From contig JABDCP010000009.1 of NCBI GenBank assembly GCA_013288045.1, positions 1 to 43,823 of the forward strand: DNA of 43,823 nt, in the 5' to 3' direction. The stretch is from Candidatus Babelota bacterium (GTDB lineage Bacteria > Babelota > Babeliae > Babelales > Babelaceae). Positions 20,681 to 29,156 of this stretch are shown here, piece after piece (position 1 is the first letter of the stretch; every line of letters begins with the position of its first letter). The notes beneath the pieces are model-generated. The model did no database searches. It was not told the DNA's origin and was given only the letters and a program-made list of their open reading frames with translations. The position numbers and the translations under genes are program-made.

Positions 20681-21085
20681 CTAAAGCTTTGAGCCATCCA
20701 TTCCCGCAAGTGCCTCATCAATAAAAGTATCGATGGTCTGACTTAGAGAAAGATTACGCTTTGTTGCCTCTTGAGTTAGGCGATGATGTCTTTCTGAAGT
20801 TGTTCTATATGCTATAGTACTTTTGAAAGAATACCTGTTTACAGGTTCTGCAATAGCGTGGCCTTCACATAAACAAGACTCAACATACAACGCTAACGCC
20901 TCTTGAATAGATTCAAAAGCTTCAGCTATAGAGGAACCATCTGTCATGACATGAGGTAACTCATTAATACTTAAGATATATATTTTGCCTGAGTTGCTAT
21001 CACTGTCCTGTCCAACAGTATAGGTCCAAGGGAGATTAAGATAGTATGACACATCCTTAGATGCCGTCTTGATATCCATGAGCAT
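20681..21085 (-). CDS. HicB-like antitoxin-type protein without a HicA partner
   Basis: 134 residues; AAGGAGG stands 7 bases before the ATG. The N-terminal ~75 residues fit the HicB partial-RNase-H-like fold: 'LPWTYTVGQ', 'YILSINELPHVMTDGSSIAEAFESIQEALALYVESCL'. The C-terminal part ('SERHHRLTQEATKRNLSLSQTIDTFIDEAL') is a ribbon-helix-helix DNA-binding domain. HicB proteins neutralise HicA mRNA interferases and repress their own operon. Only ~70 bases separate it from the upstream gene and no ~60-80 residue HicA is visible on either side. It may be an orphan regulator, or an antitoxin left after toxin loss. Confidence 0.75.
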   Translation of the reverse strand: MLMDIKTASKDVSYYLNLPWTYTVGQDSDSNSGKIYILSINELPHVMTDGSSIAEAFESIQEALALYVESCLCEGHAIAEPVNRYSFKSTIAYRTTSERHHRLTQEATKRNLSLSQTIDTFIDEALAGMDGSKL

Positions 21086-21155: not shown

Positions 21156-21731
21156 TCAATCGAGAGTCTCTATCTCTTCTAATGGTATACGAGATTCTTG
21201 ATGCGGTTCATGATGAAATTGATAGGTCTCAATAAATGCACCCAGTGCTCGATGATTGCTTAGGAGCGCCTGAGGATCTTGAAGCAATGCTTCAAAATTT
21301 GAGTCAGGAGTAAGGGAAAGCGTTTTCCCGATGACTTTGCCATTAGCCAGTTTCACCCCATCACCAGGTACTATATAGTATCCTTTTTTCGTACCAATTA
21401 TCTGATATTCTTTACCCTCTATGGTGAGGTTTTCAGGAAGATACGGACCCTCCCAATTGTGTGGCTCTAATAGATTCATAGATCCTACAACAGACCCTGC
21501 AAAAGAACCAACATTTAGAAAATCTATTAGATCCTTCGGATAGCGAAATGCTGTTATCTTACATCGATCGTTTATTCGCTTAAAAATATCCTTAAGCTGT
21601 ACAATATGATCAGCTATAAGCTCATCATTTGCCTTACGAGCTTGCATAAGATAGCGAATAATAATTATCCCAGAGCCTGCCACAAAAAGAAGTGCCAGGA
21701 AAATCCATGATCGATTATGTTGTGTAACCAT
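21156..21731 (-). CDS. Single-pass membrane protein with pseudopilin-like periplasmic domain
   Basis: 191 residues from ATG 21729-21731; a GTG start at 21764 would overlap the upstream gene. 'WIFLALLFVAGSGIIIIRYL' (~9-28) is a TM helix, followed by a helical stretch and a small globular part with 'NWEGPYLPENLTIEGKEYQIIGTKKGYYIVPGDGV'. The W-(E/K)-GPYL pattern resembles the C-terminal beta part of GspG-type pseudopilins. There is no prepilin-peptidase site (G/FT-E) at the N-terminus, so it is at best a distant relative. It begins 10 bases after the previous gene and is co-transcribed with it. Function unknown. Confidence 0.6.
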   Translation of the reverse strand: MVTQHNRSWIFLALLFVAGSGIIIIRYLMQARKANDELIADHIVQLKDIFKRINDRCKITAFRYPKDLIDFLNVGSFAGSVVGSMNLLEPHNWEGPYLPENLTIEGKEYQIIGTKKGYYIVPGDGVKLANGKVIGKTLSLTPDSNFEALLQDPQALLSNHRALGAFIETYQFHHEPHQESRIPLEEIETLD

Positions 21732-21741
21732 ATTTTTCACT

Positions 21742-22026
21742 TCAATGGCATGATGAGGAATCACATTTACAATCTGCTGAATTGCATTTGCAATCTGCTA
21801 CATTACCCTGACATCGTTTTGAATGAGCTAAATATAAAAAGACAAAGCAGAACATAGCAGCAAAACCGATCATAACATAGTTTGAGCTCGAAGTTATCGT
21901 AACACCCCATATGGAAATCGGCAGCAGACCATAAGCCTGGAACCCAATATGAACAAGCATATCCCAAAAAGCCGCCCCTGCAAGAAAATACCACAGATCA
22001 TGTAATGACCAACATTTACACCACAT
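21742..22026 (-). CDS. Small two-TM membrane protein with cysteine-rich tail
   Basis: 94 residues. It opens with 'MWCKCWSLHDLWYFLAGAAFWD', then two TM helices (~10-40 and ~50-68). The last 20 residues, 'KRCQGNVADCKCNSADCKCD', contain a doubled 'ADCKC' unit and finish 'SSSCH', giving six cysteines in the tail plus two at the N-terminus. A CKC/C-x-C pattern on one membrane face suggests metal binding, which is inference. Stop and next start are 10 bases apart. Similar short 'W(S/T)xHDLWHFLAG' proteins occur in other intracellular bacteria as far as I recall, with no assigned role. It could be the first gene of this small minus-strand run; no promoter was confirmed. Confidence 0.6.
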   Translation of the reverse strand: MWCKCWSLHDLWYFLAGAAFWDMLVHIGFQAYGLLPISIWGVTITSSSNYVMIGFAAMFCFVFLYLAHSKRCQGNVADCKCNSADCKCDSSSCH

Positions 22027-22107: not shown

Positions 22108-22239
22108 TCATGTATGTGTATTTTTACAGATCCTAGCTAATGCTTGGCTAGATTCGCCAAATCCCTGGTCTGCTAAAAGTTTATGTCTTCTTTTAGCTTC
22201 TTCTATATTACCTTCATTGACATACCCTGGATACCCCAT
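22108..22239 (-). pseudogene. Sel1-like repeat fragment, right flank of the IscB element
   Basis: A 43-codon open frame from ATG 22237-22239 to a TGA at 22108. It contains 'YVNEGNIEEAKRRHKLLADQ' followed by 'GFGESSQALARICKN', a Sel1-type (short TPR-like) repeat. Its first five codons belong to the element's right end, and it overlaps the iscB stop. Joined to the left fragment (23830-23904), it would read through in frame as a short protein with two Sel1 units. It is best viewed as the 3' part of an interrupted gene. Confidence 0.6.
22158..22177 (-). repeat. 20-base Sel1-repeat segment, copy 1 (copy 2 at 23859-23878)
   Basis: CAAATCCCTGGTCTGCTAAA here and CAAATCCCTGATCTGCTAAA at 23859-23878 match in 19 of 20 positions on the plus strand. 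Both encode 'LADQGF' on the minus strand. They lie on opposite sides of the IscB element and reflect two units of one repeat protein, not duplicated target sites. Confidence 0.85.
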
Positions 22240-23575
22240 GGCTTACTAAAACTGGAAAGGAAAGGGTATCCTTAGCCCGTTGTGTTGTTAATGAGTTCTT
22301 TTTAACTAGTGGTATAAAACTATAACGGTACCCATCAGACCTATGAATCAGCTTGCAATATGAATGTTTTATGCCTTGTACAACTTCACCATCTTGAGTT
22401 GTAATATTAAAATAGCCACGTGCACGAACGGCTACTTTACCCCAATAGGTACCTTTCTTTTTACCCTCAGGGACAATCGCTCTAACGATATCTCCCGTCT
22501 GAAAGCCATACTGTTTTTTAGCTCCTTTTGAGGAACTTCTTGGAAAACCATACCTATCTACCGCGCACATCTGCCGAGAGCCATGCCCAGTTGCTTTAAC
22601 ATATAAGGGCATAGCATCCTTGAGTAGCAATTCCTTGGGAGTTGAAGCTCCAACACAGGCAGCATCTATCCAATGTGCTTTCTCAAAGTGTTGCTGAGTT
22701 CTATTGCACTTTGTTAAAGCTCCGGTACCTGTTTCTAGAGGCAGACCATAGGTGCTTAGAAGCTTCACAAGGGCCGCTCTCATTACGTTCATAGCTGCTG
22801 CATTTTTTAGGGGAGCCTTCGCAAGCTCTTGTACCTCATGATAGCCAAACTCAGCTGCAGTGAGATTACCTTTACTTTGATTACAGGGCCTACAGGCTAG
22901 TGTAAGATTCGATACTCTATTACTCCCACCTCTACTCTTAGGCACTATATGATCTATCTCAAGAGGCACTTCTTTTTGCTTACAATAGCTACACATATAC
23001 TTGCACTTTTCAAGAACATATTCTTTAGTCTCATAGCCATAGAGTTCTCCCTGTTGATATTCAATATGAGAGATCTCAGCATTCTGCATAAGCTGTGTAT
23101 CAAACTTAGAATCTTCTATGCTTATTGCTGTAATAGGGCTAGAACGAATTAATTTGTTTATCCATGTTTTGATCTGAGCAATTCTGCCTCCTAAGGATGG
23201 CGGTAAAAATCCACTTTCACGCATTCTGTTAGCAAAGCGAGCAGGTCGATAGCGAGTTTTCCTCGCTCTTCGTGAGCATCGTGAACTTCTACGTGAGGTA
23301 AGAGCTTGTGAAATAGTATCACTCCTATGTTGTATTTCCAAAGCATGAACTACCTTACCTGTTGCATCGTCTACAATGGCCATTCCTGTTGTCTTACTAC
23401 CAGGATCAATTTTGAGACGTTGGGGTTTTATTTCTTCTTTCGATACCTCCTTGAGTATGATAGTAAAAGGGTACAACCTAAAGACAGATGCTTTACCCCG
23501 TGTAAGCAGTAATCGTGCCTTCGAAGGATGACACGGATTGACCGGCTTTTTGAGAGTATCAAGTACATGCACCAT
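22214..23575 (-). CDS. iscB: RNA-guided DNA endonuclease IscB
   Basis: 453 residues from ATG 23573-23575 (AGGAG at 6 bases); a GTG one codon earlier is too close. IscB is the transposon-encoded ancestor-type relative of Cas9, cutting DNA guided by omega RNA. Order: N-terminal PLMP-type domain ('VLDTLKKPVNPCHPSKARLL'); RuvC-I 'KIDPGSKTTGMAIV' (Asp57); Arg-rich bridge helix (~95-117, with RRSSRCSRRARK); RuvC-II 'ISIEDSKFDTQLMQ' (Glu154); HNH 'CSYC...LEIDHIVPKSRGGS...CRPCNQSKGN' (His209, Asn232, zinc cysteines 195/198/228/231); RuvC-III 'HWIDAACVG' (His301, Asp304); C-terminal target-recognition part. All catalytic residues are present, so it should be active. No tnpA is nearby. Its last codons overlap the right-end hairpin and the stop appears to come from the target. 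Confidence 0.95.
   Translation of the reverse strand: MVHVLDTLKKPVNPCHPSKARLLLTRGKASVFRLYPFTIILKEVSKEEIKPQRLKIDPGSKTTGMAIVDDATGKVVHALEIQHRSDTISQALTSRRSSRCSRRARKTRYRPARFANRMRESGFLPPSLGGRIAQIKTWINKLIRSSPITAISIEDSKFDTQLMQNAEISHIEYQQGELYGYETKEYVLEKCKYMCSYCKQKEVPLEIDHIVPKSRGGSNRVSNLTLACRPCNQSKGNLTAAEFGYHEVQELAKAPLKNAAAMNVMRAALVKLLSTYGLPLETGTGALTKCNRTQQHFEKAHWIDAACVGASTPKELLLKDAMPLYVKATGHGSRQMCAVDRYGFPRSSSKGAKKQYGFQTGDIVRAIVPEGKKKGTYWGKVAVRARGYFNITTQDGEVVQGIKHSYCKLIHRSDGYRYSFIPLVKKNSLTTQRAKDTLSFPVLVSHGVSRVCQ
22229..22271 (-). repeat. Right-end hairpin of the IscB element, inside iscB
   Basis: GGATACCC (22229-22236) pairs with GGGTATCC (22264-22271) around a 27-base loop. It ends ~5-12 bases before the inferred right boundary. 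Subterminal imperfect or looped hairpins recognised by TnpA are typical of IS200/IS605 ends. The iscB reading frame runs through it and supplies the protein's last ~20 residues. Confidence 0.6.
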
Positions 23576-23579
23576 CACA

Positions 23580-23829
23580 ATCTCCTTTCTCCCCTTACGG
23601 GGGTAATGTGTACCTCGCCAATGTTAAACAGCGGCATATCTTAGAAGCACTAGCATAGACCCTCTGCTTGTTTAACTTCTAAGTTCCAGAGCCTGAAACT
23701 GGTCGGCATTTCAAGGTGGGAGCTTGAGCGCTGCTGTTTAACGTAGCCTTATAGCCATTGCTGGCCCTGGCTGAAGCTGGTCAACGTGAGCTCTTGCAAG
23801 CTGAGGCTTTTAAGCCGCGGTCGTTGACA
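23580..23829 (-). ncRNA. IscB-associated omega RNA (scaffold); guide expected upstream at about 23830-23846
   Basis: The ~250 bases between the left boundary and iscB are non-coding and highly structured. Helices seen: 23822-23828 with 23780-23786 (CGTTGAC/GTCAACG), enclosing hairpins GGCTT..AAGCC (23805-23816) and AGCT..AGCT (23789-23802); a 10-bp helix 23733-23742 with 23623-23632 (GCTGTTTAAC/GTTAAACAGC); an 8-bp helix 23676-23683 with 23640-23647 (CTTCTAAG/CTTAGAAG); AGCCA..TGGCT (23753-23772); and CCCC..GGGG (23591-23602) just before the iscB ribosome site. In known IscB systems the omega RNA precedes the gene and carries its guide at the 5' end, in flanking DNA. The exact ends are not determined. 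Confidence 0.8.
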
Positions 23830-23904
23830 TATAACAGCTAAGTTGCACCGCACATTAGCAAATCCCTGATCTGCTAAATATTTATATAATGTCTTAAATC
23901 GCAT
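23830..23904 (-). pseudogene. Sel1-like repeat fragment, left flank and probable omega-RNA guide source
   Basis: From ATG 23902-23904, eight bases after the trpS stop, 25 codons read 'MRFKTLYKYLADQGFANVRC' then 'NLAVI' before the element begins. 'LADQGFANxxxNLAVI' is the Sel1 repeat core. Fused to the right fragment this would give '...NLAVI-YVNEGNIEEAKRR...', with 32 residues between equivalent positions, near the Sel1 repeat length. The final ~16 bases, coding for 'NLAVI', sit where the guide of the omega RNA should be. Confidence 0.6.
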
Positions 23905-23911
23905 CACTGCA

Positions 23912-24949
23912 CTAAAAATAATCTAATCTCATTACATGACGCACTTCATGCATAGTATGCTCCGCAGCCTGACGGGTCTTTTCAGTCCCTTCCTTCAAAA
24001 CTGAAAGCACATAGCTTTTGTCTTTTTTAAAATGCTCTCTACGCTCCCTGATAGGTCCAATAATTCCTTCAAGAACTTCGATGAGTCGCTTTTTAAGAAC
24101 TACATCTCCAAGTCCACCTCGTTGGTAGTGCGCTTTCAACTCTTCAACTTCCAACACGCGTGGATCAAATACGTCAAGGTACGCAAATACCGTATTGCCT
24201 TCCACTTTACCTGGATCAGTCACCTTCAGATGCGTAGGATCGGTATACATGCTCATCACTTTTTTTGCTATTACATCTGGAGAGTCAGAAAGATAGATAG
24301 CATTCCCTAAAGACTTGCTCATTTTAGCCTGACCATCAGTACCTGGTAATCGAGAAACCTTAGGGACTAATGCTTTTGCTTCAACGAGAATATCAGTCTG
24401 ATAGACTCGATTAAAGCTCCGCACAATCTCATTGGTCTGTTCGATCATGGGAAGTTGGTCTTCACCAACGGGCACCACATCAGCCTTAATAAACGTAATG
24501 TCAGCAGCCTGACTAATCGGATAGCACAAGAAGCCCGCGTTAAGCTTTTCACCAAACCCCTTCTGAAGAATTTCTGTCTTTACGGTTGGATTACGCTGCA
24601 GCCGAGCAATGGTCACTAAATTCATATAATAAATAGTAAGCTCAGCAATTTCAGGGATCATCGACTGAATAAAGATGACTGATTTGTTCGGATCAATGCC
24701 AACAGCTAGATAATCATAGGCTACTTCAAGAACATTTTCTCGCACCTTCTCAGGCGTATCAAAGTTGTCAGTCAACGCCTGAACATCTGCAACAATGATA
24801 TATTGCTTGTGTGTATCTTGTAGGATCAGCCTATTCAGAAGAGAGCCGACATAATGGCCAAGATGCAGGGGTCCTGTAGGTCGGTCACCGGTCAATACTA
24901 TCGGAATAGGTGAAGTTTTTTTTGCAGCACTTTCTGCCTTTGAGCTCAT
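23912..24949 (-). CDS. trpS: Tryptophan--tRNA ligase
   Basis: 345 residues, class I aminoacyl-tRNA synthetase charging tRNA-Trp. The HIGH-like motif is '[12 protein letters not shown]' (~25-37) and the KMSKS loop is '[14 protein letters not shown]' (~210-220). '[19 protein letters not shown]' and '[14 protein letters not shown]' are typical of bacterial TrpRS. The Ser/Lys-rich N-terminal tail of ~14 residues is a little longer than usual. It is a stand-alone gene. Its promoter was not identified with confidence in 24950-25090. Confidence 0.96.
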
Positions 24950-25092
24950 AGCACCAAATCTCCATCAGATTTTTTAGTCTGCCAATAGCACCCTTCTCTG
25001 ATATAAAAGCGCTGACTAAAAGTTCATTTCAACAGATTTAACTTTTTTTGTTCGCCTAGATCAATCCAAGCTAAGAATCATACTATATGAAC

Positions 25093-25121
25093 TTGGCAGA
25101 TTTGTCCAAATAAGGTATACT
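25093..25121 (+). promoter_or_regulatory. Sigma-70-type promoter for the CdaA-like gene
   Basis: TTGGCA (25093-25098), a 17-base spacer, TATACT (25116-25121), ~70 bases before the start codon. Confidence 0.65.
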
Positions 25122-25190
25122 CAGTACGGTCGAAAAAGGAGAGACCAAGCAGATCATTTCCCATATCTTACAAGCTTGTGAAGGGGCTTC

Positions 25191-26024
25191 ATGACATACC
25201 TAACGGCAATGCTCGCCCATGTTGCGCGCACATTACCCTACCGCGATATTATAGAAGTACTTTTTTTTGCCGGAGCAATTTATTATATACAACTGTGGCT
25301 GAAGAAGGACAGCCAGCGTAATCTTCTTTTAGGATTCTATATTTATTGTGCACTCTTTTGTGCCTCATACTATGCAGATCTTCCGGTCCTACGTTTTATC
25401 TTATTTATATTTGCACCCGCAATAGCGATGCTCTTCATTATTTTGCATCAAGAAACATTGCAAAAGAATTTTATTACTCTCTCAAATCCTGCAACCCCTC
25501 TTAAGGACCAAAGTACCTGGATTGACGAGCTCATAAAATGTACTCTCACGGCTCTTAATAAGCATAAAGATATTATTCTCGTTCTTGAACGAAATGATCC
25601 TCTTAAAAACCTTATTCATGCGCCCTATTTTATTTATGCTGAACTTAAGAAGGATGTCTTTGAGATTCTTCTTGAGAAGCAGGCGGCAGGAAACGATTAT
25701 ATGATCTGGATAAATCAACAGGGAAAGATTGTTTCCATTAACTCATGTTGGAAGACACAGCTTGATGAAGATTGGATTTCCCAAGATGCAGAACATATGC
25801 ATGTCTGGAAACAGCAGGCACTCTACTTTAGCAGTAAAACTGACGCTCTTGCGCTTAAGATCAATCCTGTTTCACGAAGTTTTGACGTTGTTTCACAAGG
25901 TCGCATTGTGGAAGGAATGACCGCAGATGCAGTGACTACCTACCTCAAGAAACAGCTTCTTCAAGGTTCACGAAAAGAAAAAGTAGCCATAGTCCAACCG
26001 CAAGCATCACAAAAATCAGCTTAA
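25191..26024 (+). CDS. CdaA-like membrane protein with degenerate diadenylate cyclase domain
   Basis: 277 residues. Three TM helices (~18-36, 46-62, 66-85) match the CdaA/DacA layout ('YRDIIEVLFFAGAIYYIQLWLKK' ... 'LLLGFYIYCALF' ... 'LFIFAPAIAMLFIILHQETLQKNF'). The cytosolic part aligns along the DisA_N/DAC fold: 'KDIILVLERNDPLKNLI' for the usual 'GALIVLER.D.L'; 'NDYMIWINQQGKIVSINSCW' where the catalytic 'DGAVII...G.I..A.C' belongs; 'VWKQQALYFSSKTDALALKI' in place of 'RHRAALGISE.TDA..IVV'. Both signature motifs, DGA and RHR, are gone (NDY at ~168-170, WKQ at ~206-208). Synthesis of c-di-AMP is therefore unlikely; a scaffold or regulatory role is inferred. cdaR-like and glmM homologues lie 15 kb away. 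Confidence 0.75.
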   Translation: MTYLTAMLAHVARTLPYRDIIEVLFFAGAIYYIQLWLKKDSQRNLLLGFYIYCALFCASYYADLPVLRFILFIFAPAIAMLFIILHQETLQKNFITLSNPATPLKDQSTWIDELIKCTLTALNKHKDIILVLERNDPLKNLIHAPYFIYAELKKDVFEILLEKQAAGNDYMIWINQQGKIVSINSCWKTQLDEDWISQDAEHMHVWKQQALYFSSKTDALALKINPVSRSFDVVSQGRIVEGMTADAVTTYLKKQLLQGSRKEKVAIVQPQASQKSA

Positions 26025-26500: not shown

Positions 26501-27649
26501 ATGAAAAATCTATTTATTTTTTGTGGACTACAGCTCTTAATAATAACGTGTGAGGCTGCAGAGTCATCATGCCTAGCAAAACCTCGATCTGAAGAGACTA
26601 CGTCACAACCAACCAAATTGGAATCCCTCTTTAAAGTAATCAGATGGGGCAACATGGCTGAAGATGATCTTTTGAACAAGGTTGATGAATTACTTAGCCA
26701 GGGCTGCGATGTGAACCAAGAAGGATATCTAGGCAGAACCCTGCTCATGTTTGCAGCTGCTCGAGACTATAGAGCTGTAGTACAGAAGCTCATAGATGCA
26801 GGTGCCGATCTGAAAATTCGGGACAAAGTCGGTATGAATGCGCTTATGTTTGGCGCCTATCAAGGGCATGCGGAAATTTGTGCGCTTCTTATTGGACATA
26901 TGGGGAGAATCAATATGGATGCTCCTGATACTAGCGAGACAACCGCCCTTATGTACGCTGCACGTAGCGGTAGTAAAGCTACGATTTCTCTGCTGTTACA
27001 GCATGGTGCTCAGGCCAATGCGCGAAATAAATCAGGTTCTACACCCCTTATGCAAGCCTGTGGTGTCTCGTTTCCGTCTGTCGAGGTGTCCTGGCGTTCA
27101 TCTTCGCAAAAAGGGAAAATTATAACTTTGGCTGAGGCGCGTATTGCTGGCATAGATGCCTGTACAGAACTTCTGCAAATCGGAGCCGACATTACTGCCG
27201 TTGATGCAAGTGGCAAATCAGCACTTTTTTATGCTGCGTTAAATTTGCGAGAAGATGTATGCAAACTATTATTGAGTCGAGGAGCTACAAGTATACGAAT
27301 TGTTGAACCAGACAACTTACTCTACGTGAACGACCTTATGTCAGCAGCTCTTTTAGGTAATGAAACTTGCTTAAAGGTATTGCTCGATGCTGGCGTGCCA
27401 GTAAATGCCAAAAATGATCACGGCGAAACAGCTCTTCTTAAAGCAGCTTCTAGAGGCCATCTACCCTGCATTTCTTGCTTGCTCGCTGCCAAAGCAGATT
27501 TAGAGCTATGCGATGATACCGGTCTTACACCGTTATATGCGGCAGCACAAGAAGATCAAAAAGAAGCTGTTGCCACTCTGCTTAAAGCGGGCGCTCGGCG
27601 AACTCTTGATCCTCGCTTTCAACATATCAATAGCAGGTTGTCATGGTAG
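26501..27649 (+). CDS. Secreted ankyrin-repeat protein 1
   Basis: 382 residues. Signal peptide 'MKNLFIFCGLQLLIITCEAAES'. After a ~35-residue lead come about eight ankyrin repeats: 'LGRTLLMFAAARDYRAVVQKLIDAGADL', 'VGMNALMFGAYQGHAEICALLIGHM', 'SETTALMYAARSGSKATISLLLQHGAQAN', 'SGSTPLMQACGV', then 'SGKSALFYAALNLREDVCKLLLSRGA', 'HGETALLKAASRGHLPCISCLLAAKADL', 'TGLTPLYAAAQEDQKEAVATLLKAGA'. Ankyrin proteins of intracellular bacteria often act on host proteins; here that is inference, supported by export. It lacks a ~40-residue insert present in its two neighbours. Its end is shorter than that of paralogue 2, and remnants of the lost tail may be readable past the stop. Confidence 0.85.
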   Translation: MKNLFIFCGLQLLIITCEAAESSCLAKPRSEETTSQPTKLESLFKVIRWGNMAEDDLLNKVDELLSQGCDVNQEGYLGRTLLMFAAARDYRAVVQKLIDAGADLKIRDKVGMNALMFGAYQGHAEICALLIGHMGRINMDAPDTSETTALMYAARSGSKATISLLLQHGAQANARNKSGSTPLMQACGVSFPSVEVSWRSSSQKGKIITLAEARIAGIDACTELLQIGADITAVDASGKSALFYAALNLREDVCKLLLSRGATSIRIVEPDNLLYVNDLMSAALLGNETCLKVLLDAGVPVNAKNDHGETALLKAASRGHLPCISCLLAAKADLELCDDTGLTPLYAAAQEDQKEAVATLLKAGARRTLDPRFQHINSRLSW

Positions 27650-27821: not shown

Positions 27822-29156
27822 ATGAAAAATCTGCTTATTATCTGTGGGCTCTTACTAGGACCCGTGATGCAGTGCGAGGCTGCGAAGCCATTATGCATTA
27901 CAAAGTCTCAACATTCGTTGACGGACGACAAAGCACAGAAAGCAGAATTTGATTTGCTTGCCATAACCCTCCATCGGGACAATAGACCTGAGGATGAGCT
28001 GTTAAACAAAACTCGTAAATTACTTAATCAAGGAGTCGATATCAACCAAAAACATCACTCATTGACCTTACTCATGCTCGCGGTTGGGAAAGGGTATGGA
28101 GCTTTAGTACACATGCTGTTAGATGCAGGTGCTGATCTGAACATGCGCAGTTCAACAGGTATGACAGCACTCATGATTGGTGCTTATCAACAAGAAGCAG
28201 AAATGTGTAGGCTGCTTATTCAGCACATGGAGAAAAAGCGACAGTATGGTACCGTTGCCCGTGCTCTTATGGAGTGCATGGGTTCTTGTGATATTAAAGG
28301 AGCCTACCAAGTGCTCACAGGCTTTAATCAAGAAGGTATCGATGCTACCGATGATACTGGCATGACCGCCTTAATGTATGCGGCTCACAATAGAGACAAA
28401 ACTACTACTGCCCTACTTCTCCATCATGGAGCGCAAGCTAATGCCCAAAACAAGTTTGGTATGACTCCTCTCATGCTATCCTGCGGGGCCCCTATACCAC
28501 AGACAGAACGAGCCTTTGATGAAATCATTACTCTCAGTATAGATGCCTGTGTAGCGCTTCTGCAAAATGGTGCCGACATTAGGCGTCGAGATCAGAATGG
28601 AAGGTCAGCACTTTTGCATGCTGCAGAGGCCCTCGGAGAAGATGAATGCAAATTATTGTTGAGTCAAGGAGCCAAAGAAACGCACTTTAATAGATCTGGT
28701 TATCCCCCTATCAAGGCTGACAATCTTCCCCTAGCAGCATTGCATAATAAAGAGGTTTGCTTAAGAGTATTACTCGATGCTGGCGTGCCAGTAGATACTG
28801 CCCTACATGGTGGGACAACTACACTTCATTGCGCTGCTTCTTCTGGCAGCTTAGGGTGCATCAATACGTTACTCGATGCTGGAGCAGATACAGAACTACG
28901 CGATGAAAAGAGCTTTACACCATTGTATAATGCTGCAGCAAATGGTCATAAGCAGGCTGTTGATGCTCTTGTTAAAGCCGGTGCCAATCGAATTCTCGAT
29001 TTTTCCTGTGTTGAACATGGATATTCTCGTCACCTAGGCGAAAGTATTAAAAAATGGTTTCAGCAAGAGAGGTACAATTATGAGGAGCTTGCCCAGGAGA
29101 TCGATAGATTAAAAGAAAAATTCGGTCCAGTAGCAGGTCAAAAGAGGTTCTTATGA
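27822..29156 (+). CDS. Secreted ankyrin-repeat protein 2
   Basis: 444 residues; signal peptide 'MKNLLIICGLLLGPVMQCEAAK'. The repeat layout is the same as in neighbours 1 and 3. After the second repeat it carries an insert 'HMEKKRQYGTVARALMECMG' plus 'SCDIKGAYQVLTGFNQEGID' (~125-165) that protein 3 shares and protein 1 lacks. Ankyrin units: 'LTLLMLAVGKGYGALVHMLLDAGADL', 'TGMTALMIGAYQQEAEMCRLLIQ', 'TGMTALMYAAHNRDKTTTALLLHHGAQAN', 'GGTTTLHCAASSGSLGCINTLLDAGADTEL', 'KSFTPLYNAAANGHKQAVDALVKAGAN'. The C-terminal ~45 residues form a charged helical tail ('ESIKKWFQQERYNYEELAQE'). Stop and next start overlap by 4 bases. Confidence 0.85.
   Translation: MKNLLIICGLLLGPVMQCEAAKPLCITKSQHSLTDDKAQKAEFDLLAITLHRDNRPEDELLNKTRKLLNQGVDINQKHHSLTLLMLAVGKGYGALVHMLLDAGADLNMRSSTGMTALMIGAYQQEAEMCRLLIQHMEKKRQYGTVARALMECMGSCDIKGAYQVLTGFNQEGIDATDDTGMTALMYAAHNRDKTTTALLLHHGAQANAQNKFGMTPLMLSCGAPIPQTERAFDEIITLSIDACVALLQNGADIRRRDQNGRSALLHAAEALGEDECKLLLSQGAKETHFNRSGYPPIKADNLPLAALHNKEVCLRVLLDAGVPVDTALHGGTTTLHCAASSGSLGCINTLLDAGADTELRDEKSFTPLYNAAANGHKQAVDALVKAGANRILDFSCVEHGYSRHLGESIKKWFQQERYNYEELAQEIDRLKEKFGPVAGQKRFL

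Follow-up and report, generated by a model that had tools for sequence, protein, structure and literature searches.

What kind of element separates two Sel1-coding fragments beside trpS in this Candidatus Babelota genome, where exactly does it begin and end, and what keeps it there? The window, i.e., the whole stretch of 43,823 nucleotides analysed here, is contig C9 of the source genome (G000; 1.04 Mb in 31 contigs, 67% complete). Comparisons covered 101 genomes of the phylum, all from one order, and a family set of 16 genomes consisting of the source genome and 15 relatives. The locus is very probably explained by a transposase-less OMEGA element of 1611 bp, which was inserted in the IS200/IS605 manner directly before an ATGA within a Sel1 fragment and is presumably retained by its nuclease.

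An IscB gene and its omegaRNA

The following features, given in window coordinates, make up the element and its host surroundings:

22214 to 23578, minus strand: iscB, 454 aa (matches to NF040563, RRXRR and the HNH domain)
23603 to 23828, minus strand: HEARO/omegaRNA (RF02033, model positions 1-211 of 211, 127.8 bits, E=3.8e-27, gathering score 83)
22229 to 22271, no strand assigned: terminal hairpin near the 3′ end with 8-bp arms GGATACCC and GGGTATCC (read from the sequence)
23912 to 24949, minus strand: trpS, flanking host gene (TIGR00233, 242 bits)
21156 to 21764, minus strand: host gene, 202 aa

The protein scored 404.8 bits against the NCBI IscB model NF040563 (cut-off 175), contained RRXRR (RuvC) and HNH domains with 206 and 52 bits, respectively, and is clearly homologous to solved IscBs. 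D58 (RuvC-I), E155 (RuvC-II), H210 and N233 (HNH), and H302 and D305 (RuvC-III), which we take to be the catalytic residues from what is known of the family, were all conserved in an alignment with a second copy in the same genome (C3) and with IscB of genome G010, bearing out the intact RuvC and HNH motifs that the original prediction had read from the letters. The structured RNA region proposed for one end proved to be a full-length HEARO directly 5′ of iscB and above the gathering score, and the hairpin proposed for the iscB end was found as the 8-bp inverted repeat listed above. By the known mechanism of the family, IscB and omegaRNA are predicted to form an RNA-guided DNA-cleaving complex.

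No Y1 transposase TnpA was detected at E≤0.001 in the 67%-complete assembly, including the element itself. The description of the element as complete stands for a transposase-less element and falls for one with tnpA. IscB usually occurs with no TnpA in its neighbourhood (PMC9755519). Y1 proteins were present in some members of the phylum and mostly absent from the closest relatives.

Ends of the element and target motif

Comparison with the sister copies and with related elements gave the following ends:

22218 to 23828, minus strand: IscB element, corrected ends, 1611 bp (HEARO start; sister-copy comparison)
22214 to 22217, minus strand: ATGA (TCAT on the plus strand), presumed target-adjacent motif and insertion target (RTGA/RTGR junctions)

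At the RNA end, the Rfam model and the copies C1 and C3 all begin with GTCAA, as does the window element at 23828, and the similarity to C1 and C3 stops there. At the other end, TATGTCA (22218-22224) recurs at the end of C1 before ATGAA, in an unrelated context; these seven bases therefore belong to the element and not to Sel1, and the codons for 'YV' that had been assigned to Sel1 are the tip of the element. The sequence TATGTCAATGAA is common to the window and C1, whose surroundings, before a conserved gene, are unrelated. The stop codon TGA of iscB is part of the host ATGA.

The comparison of near-identical elements in different surroundings covered seven sets (the window pair, G010, two Blastocatellia types and three viral groups). 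In all seven, the shared sequence reached an RTGA-type motif and ended no more than two bases from it. Two of the comparisons were read by eye: one Blastocatellia pair had been mis-anchored automatically, and another showed a single variable base just before GTGA. The 3′ junctions of about 36 related elements, likewise read by eye because an automatic hairpin finder was too crude, and checked with near-identical copy pairs, carried RTGA or RTGG. For IsrB enzymes, a TAM of NTGA/NTG has been measured (PMC9581776). Together, the copy sets, the junctions and the IsrB motif place the element at 22218-23828, directly before a host ATGA. As in IS200/IS605-type insertions, a fixed short motif stands at one junction and is kept in the empty site, as seen in the RTGA sets and in the ATGAAC at the C1 site of a relative. 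The 2009 description of HEARO reportedly noted ATGA or GTGA at the 3′ side already.

The original prediction had instead fixed the insertion point by protein logic at 22225-23829, which misses 7 bases of the element at the iscB 3′ end and takes in 1 base too many at the RNA end. That the element has these ends, and interrupts an intact Sel1 gene built of units of exactly 32 residues, is improbable: TATGTCA also ends C1 in its unrelated context, the RNA end begins GTCAA in the Rfam model as well as in C1 and C3, and no RTGA is left at the boundary. What this placement does offer is an in-frame join with the 32-residue unit seen in a Sel1-type gene elsewhere in the genome (contig C22), a point that leads to the flanks.

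The interrupted Sel1 sequence

Sel1-coding sequence was confirmed on both flanks of the element:

23829 to 23904, minus strand: Sel1-like fragment, 5′ part
22108 to 22217, minus strand: Sel1-like fragment, 3′ part, with stop

As had been proposed, removal of 22225-23829 (join 22224/23830) leaves an open frame with a repeat spacing of 32 residues. The join at the corrected ends is also open, with a spacing of 30 residues; an in-frame join has a chance of one in three. Since the frame is open with either boundary, it cannot by itself choose between them, and the only point in favour of the boundary proposed first is the 32-residue spacing.

The expected empty site, with an uninterrupted Sel1 frame after trpS, was not found. 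All 15 family relatives have trpS, none has Sel1 behind it, and none provided an empty site for the window copy; in the nearest relatives, a homolog of the 202-aa host gene (21156-21764) directly follows trpS. A search of the family for an intact copy of the flanks returned distant Sel1 genes only. Given the absence of Sel1 after trpS in all relatives, the Sel1 piece is a lineage-specific insertion or remnant, probably the latter, and not an ancestral gene with an empty site to be found.

Elsewhere in the window, a HicB-like antitoxin-type protein (20681-21085) scored 24.6 bits, just under the Pfam cut-off of 27, and two adjacent, similar ankyrin-repeat genes (26501-27649 and 27822-29156) are likely a tandem duplication.

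Guide and retention

By analogy with the known family, the host flank that forms the 5′ end of the omegaRNA would serve as the guide:

23829 to 23848, minus strand: expected guide segment, adjoining the first HEARO base

In a search of the 16 family genomes, no target of this guide with NTGA and up to 3 mismatches was detected; the guide matched at its own site only, where GTCA takes the place of NTGA. Because GTCA and not NTGA follows the guide match, the occupied allele would be protected.

These observations fit the following course of events. An IS200/IS605-type process would have inserted the element immediately ahead of ATGA, within the lineage-specific Sel1-repeat fragment that separates trpS from the following gene, with mobilisation presumably by a TnpA that was not seen in the assembly. 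Adjoining host DNA (from 23829 on, minus strand) would then become the 5′ end of the omegaRNA and act as guide, so that IscB and omegaRNA may cut empty alleles, in which the guide match is followed by ATGA, and spare the occupied allele, in which it is followed by GTCA. If a cut empty allele is repaired with the occupied one as template, the element would persist. From what is known of the family, it is reasonable to infer that the element is kept by its own nuclease.

Sister copies in the same genome

A search for further copies in the source genome, as the original prediction had suggested, yielded two, both diverged from the window copy:

L002, 1393 to 3036 (contig C3, about 23951-25594): C3 element, in tRNA-Ala(GGC)
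L003, 1505 to 1909 (contig C1): C1 element, 405 bp, internally deleted, with the complete omegaRNA and 45 codons of iscB

C3 encodes an intact IscB with 64% protein identity to the window copy and an omegaRNA of 108 bits. The omegaRNA of C1 is full-length (129.4 bits), its terminal bases are the same as those of the window copy, and the two are 89% identical over the RNA end. The ATG of a conserved gene follows C1 immediately. Five relatives (G011, G007, G004, G009 and G012) lack the element at this site but have the gene and its upstream neighbour, and in G011 the gene begins with ATGAAC, like the C1 locus. The omegaRNA of C1 may serve on its own as a guide RNA for IscB made by the window copy or C3.

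Given this divergence in protein and RNA, nothing points to a very recent burst of copying. The claims of an active element and a recent insertion found no support, as the search of the 67%-complete genome detected no TnpA and the identities given above set the copies apart.

The missing tnpA, the deletion in C1 and the divergence of the copies would also be expected of a dead relic that lost mobilisation together with tnpA and in which iscB is intact by chance. We consider this unlikely, as reading frame, catalytic motifs and omegaRNA are intact in both the window copy and C3 at approximately 64% protein identity, which is what purifying selection predicts, and as IscB elements usually lack tnpA (PMC9755519). 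The intact catalytic motifs in the absence of a transposase, together with a standalone omegaRNA directly before a conserved gene, are likewise compatible with an IscB domesticated for a host role in regulation or defence instead of element maintenance. Such a role is very improbable, because every copy occupies a different site with element-type ends and the occurrence is sporadic, with clear IscB in 2 of the 101 phylum genomes and HEARO above the cut-off in the source genome alone.

A tRNA-Ala gene as insertion site

At the C3 locus, a 34-bp 3′ half of tRNA-Ala occurs twice, with 31 of 34 positions identical. The displaced native half abuts the start of the omegaRNA, and the other half makes the tRNA-Ala whole again, with ATGG coming next when read in the direction of iscB. 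Up to the end of the tRNA, the reading frame of the C3 protein is similar to that of the window copy, which places the T-arm of the tRNA at the position of the terminal hairpin. G010 (L077) has just one tRNA-Ala(GGC) at the corresponding site, and the gene behind it is the one found there in the source genome.

Tentatively, C3 may represent a type of IscB element that targets a tRNA gene and carries a replacement tRNA 3′ half as its terminal hairpin, such that the insertion restores the tRNA; either this holds or a tandem tRNA pair has suffered a deletion. If the former is true, an RNA-guided element would be using the harmless-insertion strategy of tRNA-site integrases.

When viral contigs were scanned for tRNA genes that contain an omegaRNA end, the two matches obtained were put down to chance, and a direct repeat around the element at viral locus L112, considered as a second case of tRNA or gene restoration, was unconvincing. 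The tRNA-like piece in C3 was also considered as a tmRNA 3′ end and rejected, since the acceptor ends of the tmRNAs of relatives differ and the piece matches tRNA-Ala. No tmRNA scored above the cut-off in the 67%-complete source assembly, probably owing to its incompleteness; tmRNA was present in 14 of the 16 family genomes.

Distribution of related elements

Within the phylum, the second genome with clear IscB besides the source genome was G010, a member of the same genus, in which three or more copies or fragments of an IscB element lie at contig starts (L136, L138 and L141). This position suggests that a repeated element interrupted the assembly. HEARO was not detected in G010, probably because its contigs break inside iscB.

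Outside the phylum, related loci were found on viral contigs (43, nearly all with 39-55% identity), on plasmids (70 with matches, the best at about 50-53% identity) and in phages (16 with matches). An IscB search of genome contigs returned partial Blastocatellia copies only; the window IscB is 63% identical to a partial match in a Blastocatellia MAG. The window element is a sporadic, probably horizontally acquired member of the known IscB/HEARO family. The Blastocatellia MAG G101 carries two types of IscB element (L137/L144 vs L139/L140/L143), with GTGA vs ATGAA at the 3′ end, in several copies that are mostly located at contig ends.

At 21 of 27 viral junctions (among L093-L133), an open frame of at least 60 codons started no more than 20 nt downstream of the motif; the baseline was 12-14% of RTGR sites on the same contigs, this null being approximate and the loci not fully independent. 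RTGA ends that lie mostly at gene starts and the apparent rebuilding of a tRNA gene are both relevant to the question of how IscB elements poor in transposases can spread without damage to the host.

Comparison with known systems

The window copy extends a known family to a phylum that rarely hosts it; its ends are fixed to the base, and its target motif can be predicted. It shares with the IscB/HEARO OMEGA elements (RF02033 and NF040563) the protein domains, a full-model omegaRNA, the order of RNA followed by iscB, the terminal hairpin and a 3′ motif of the NTG type; it differs in that its IscB is 50-55% identical to the nearest matches on plasmids and in viruses, and in its occurrence in a phylum where the family is rare. 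IsrB (DtIsrB and relatives, PMC9581776) has a 3′ TAM of the same NTGA/NTG type and an omegaRNA 5′ of the gene, but lacks the HNH domain that the window IscB possesses. With IS200/IS605 transposons, the element has in common that no target duplication is expected, that it adjoins a fixed motif of a few bases (TCAT, read on the opposite strand), that hairpins lie at the ends and that an internally deleted derivative exists; unlike them, it carries no tnpA, and none was found in the genome assembly.
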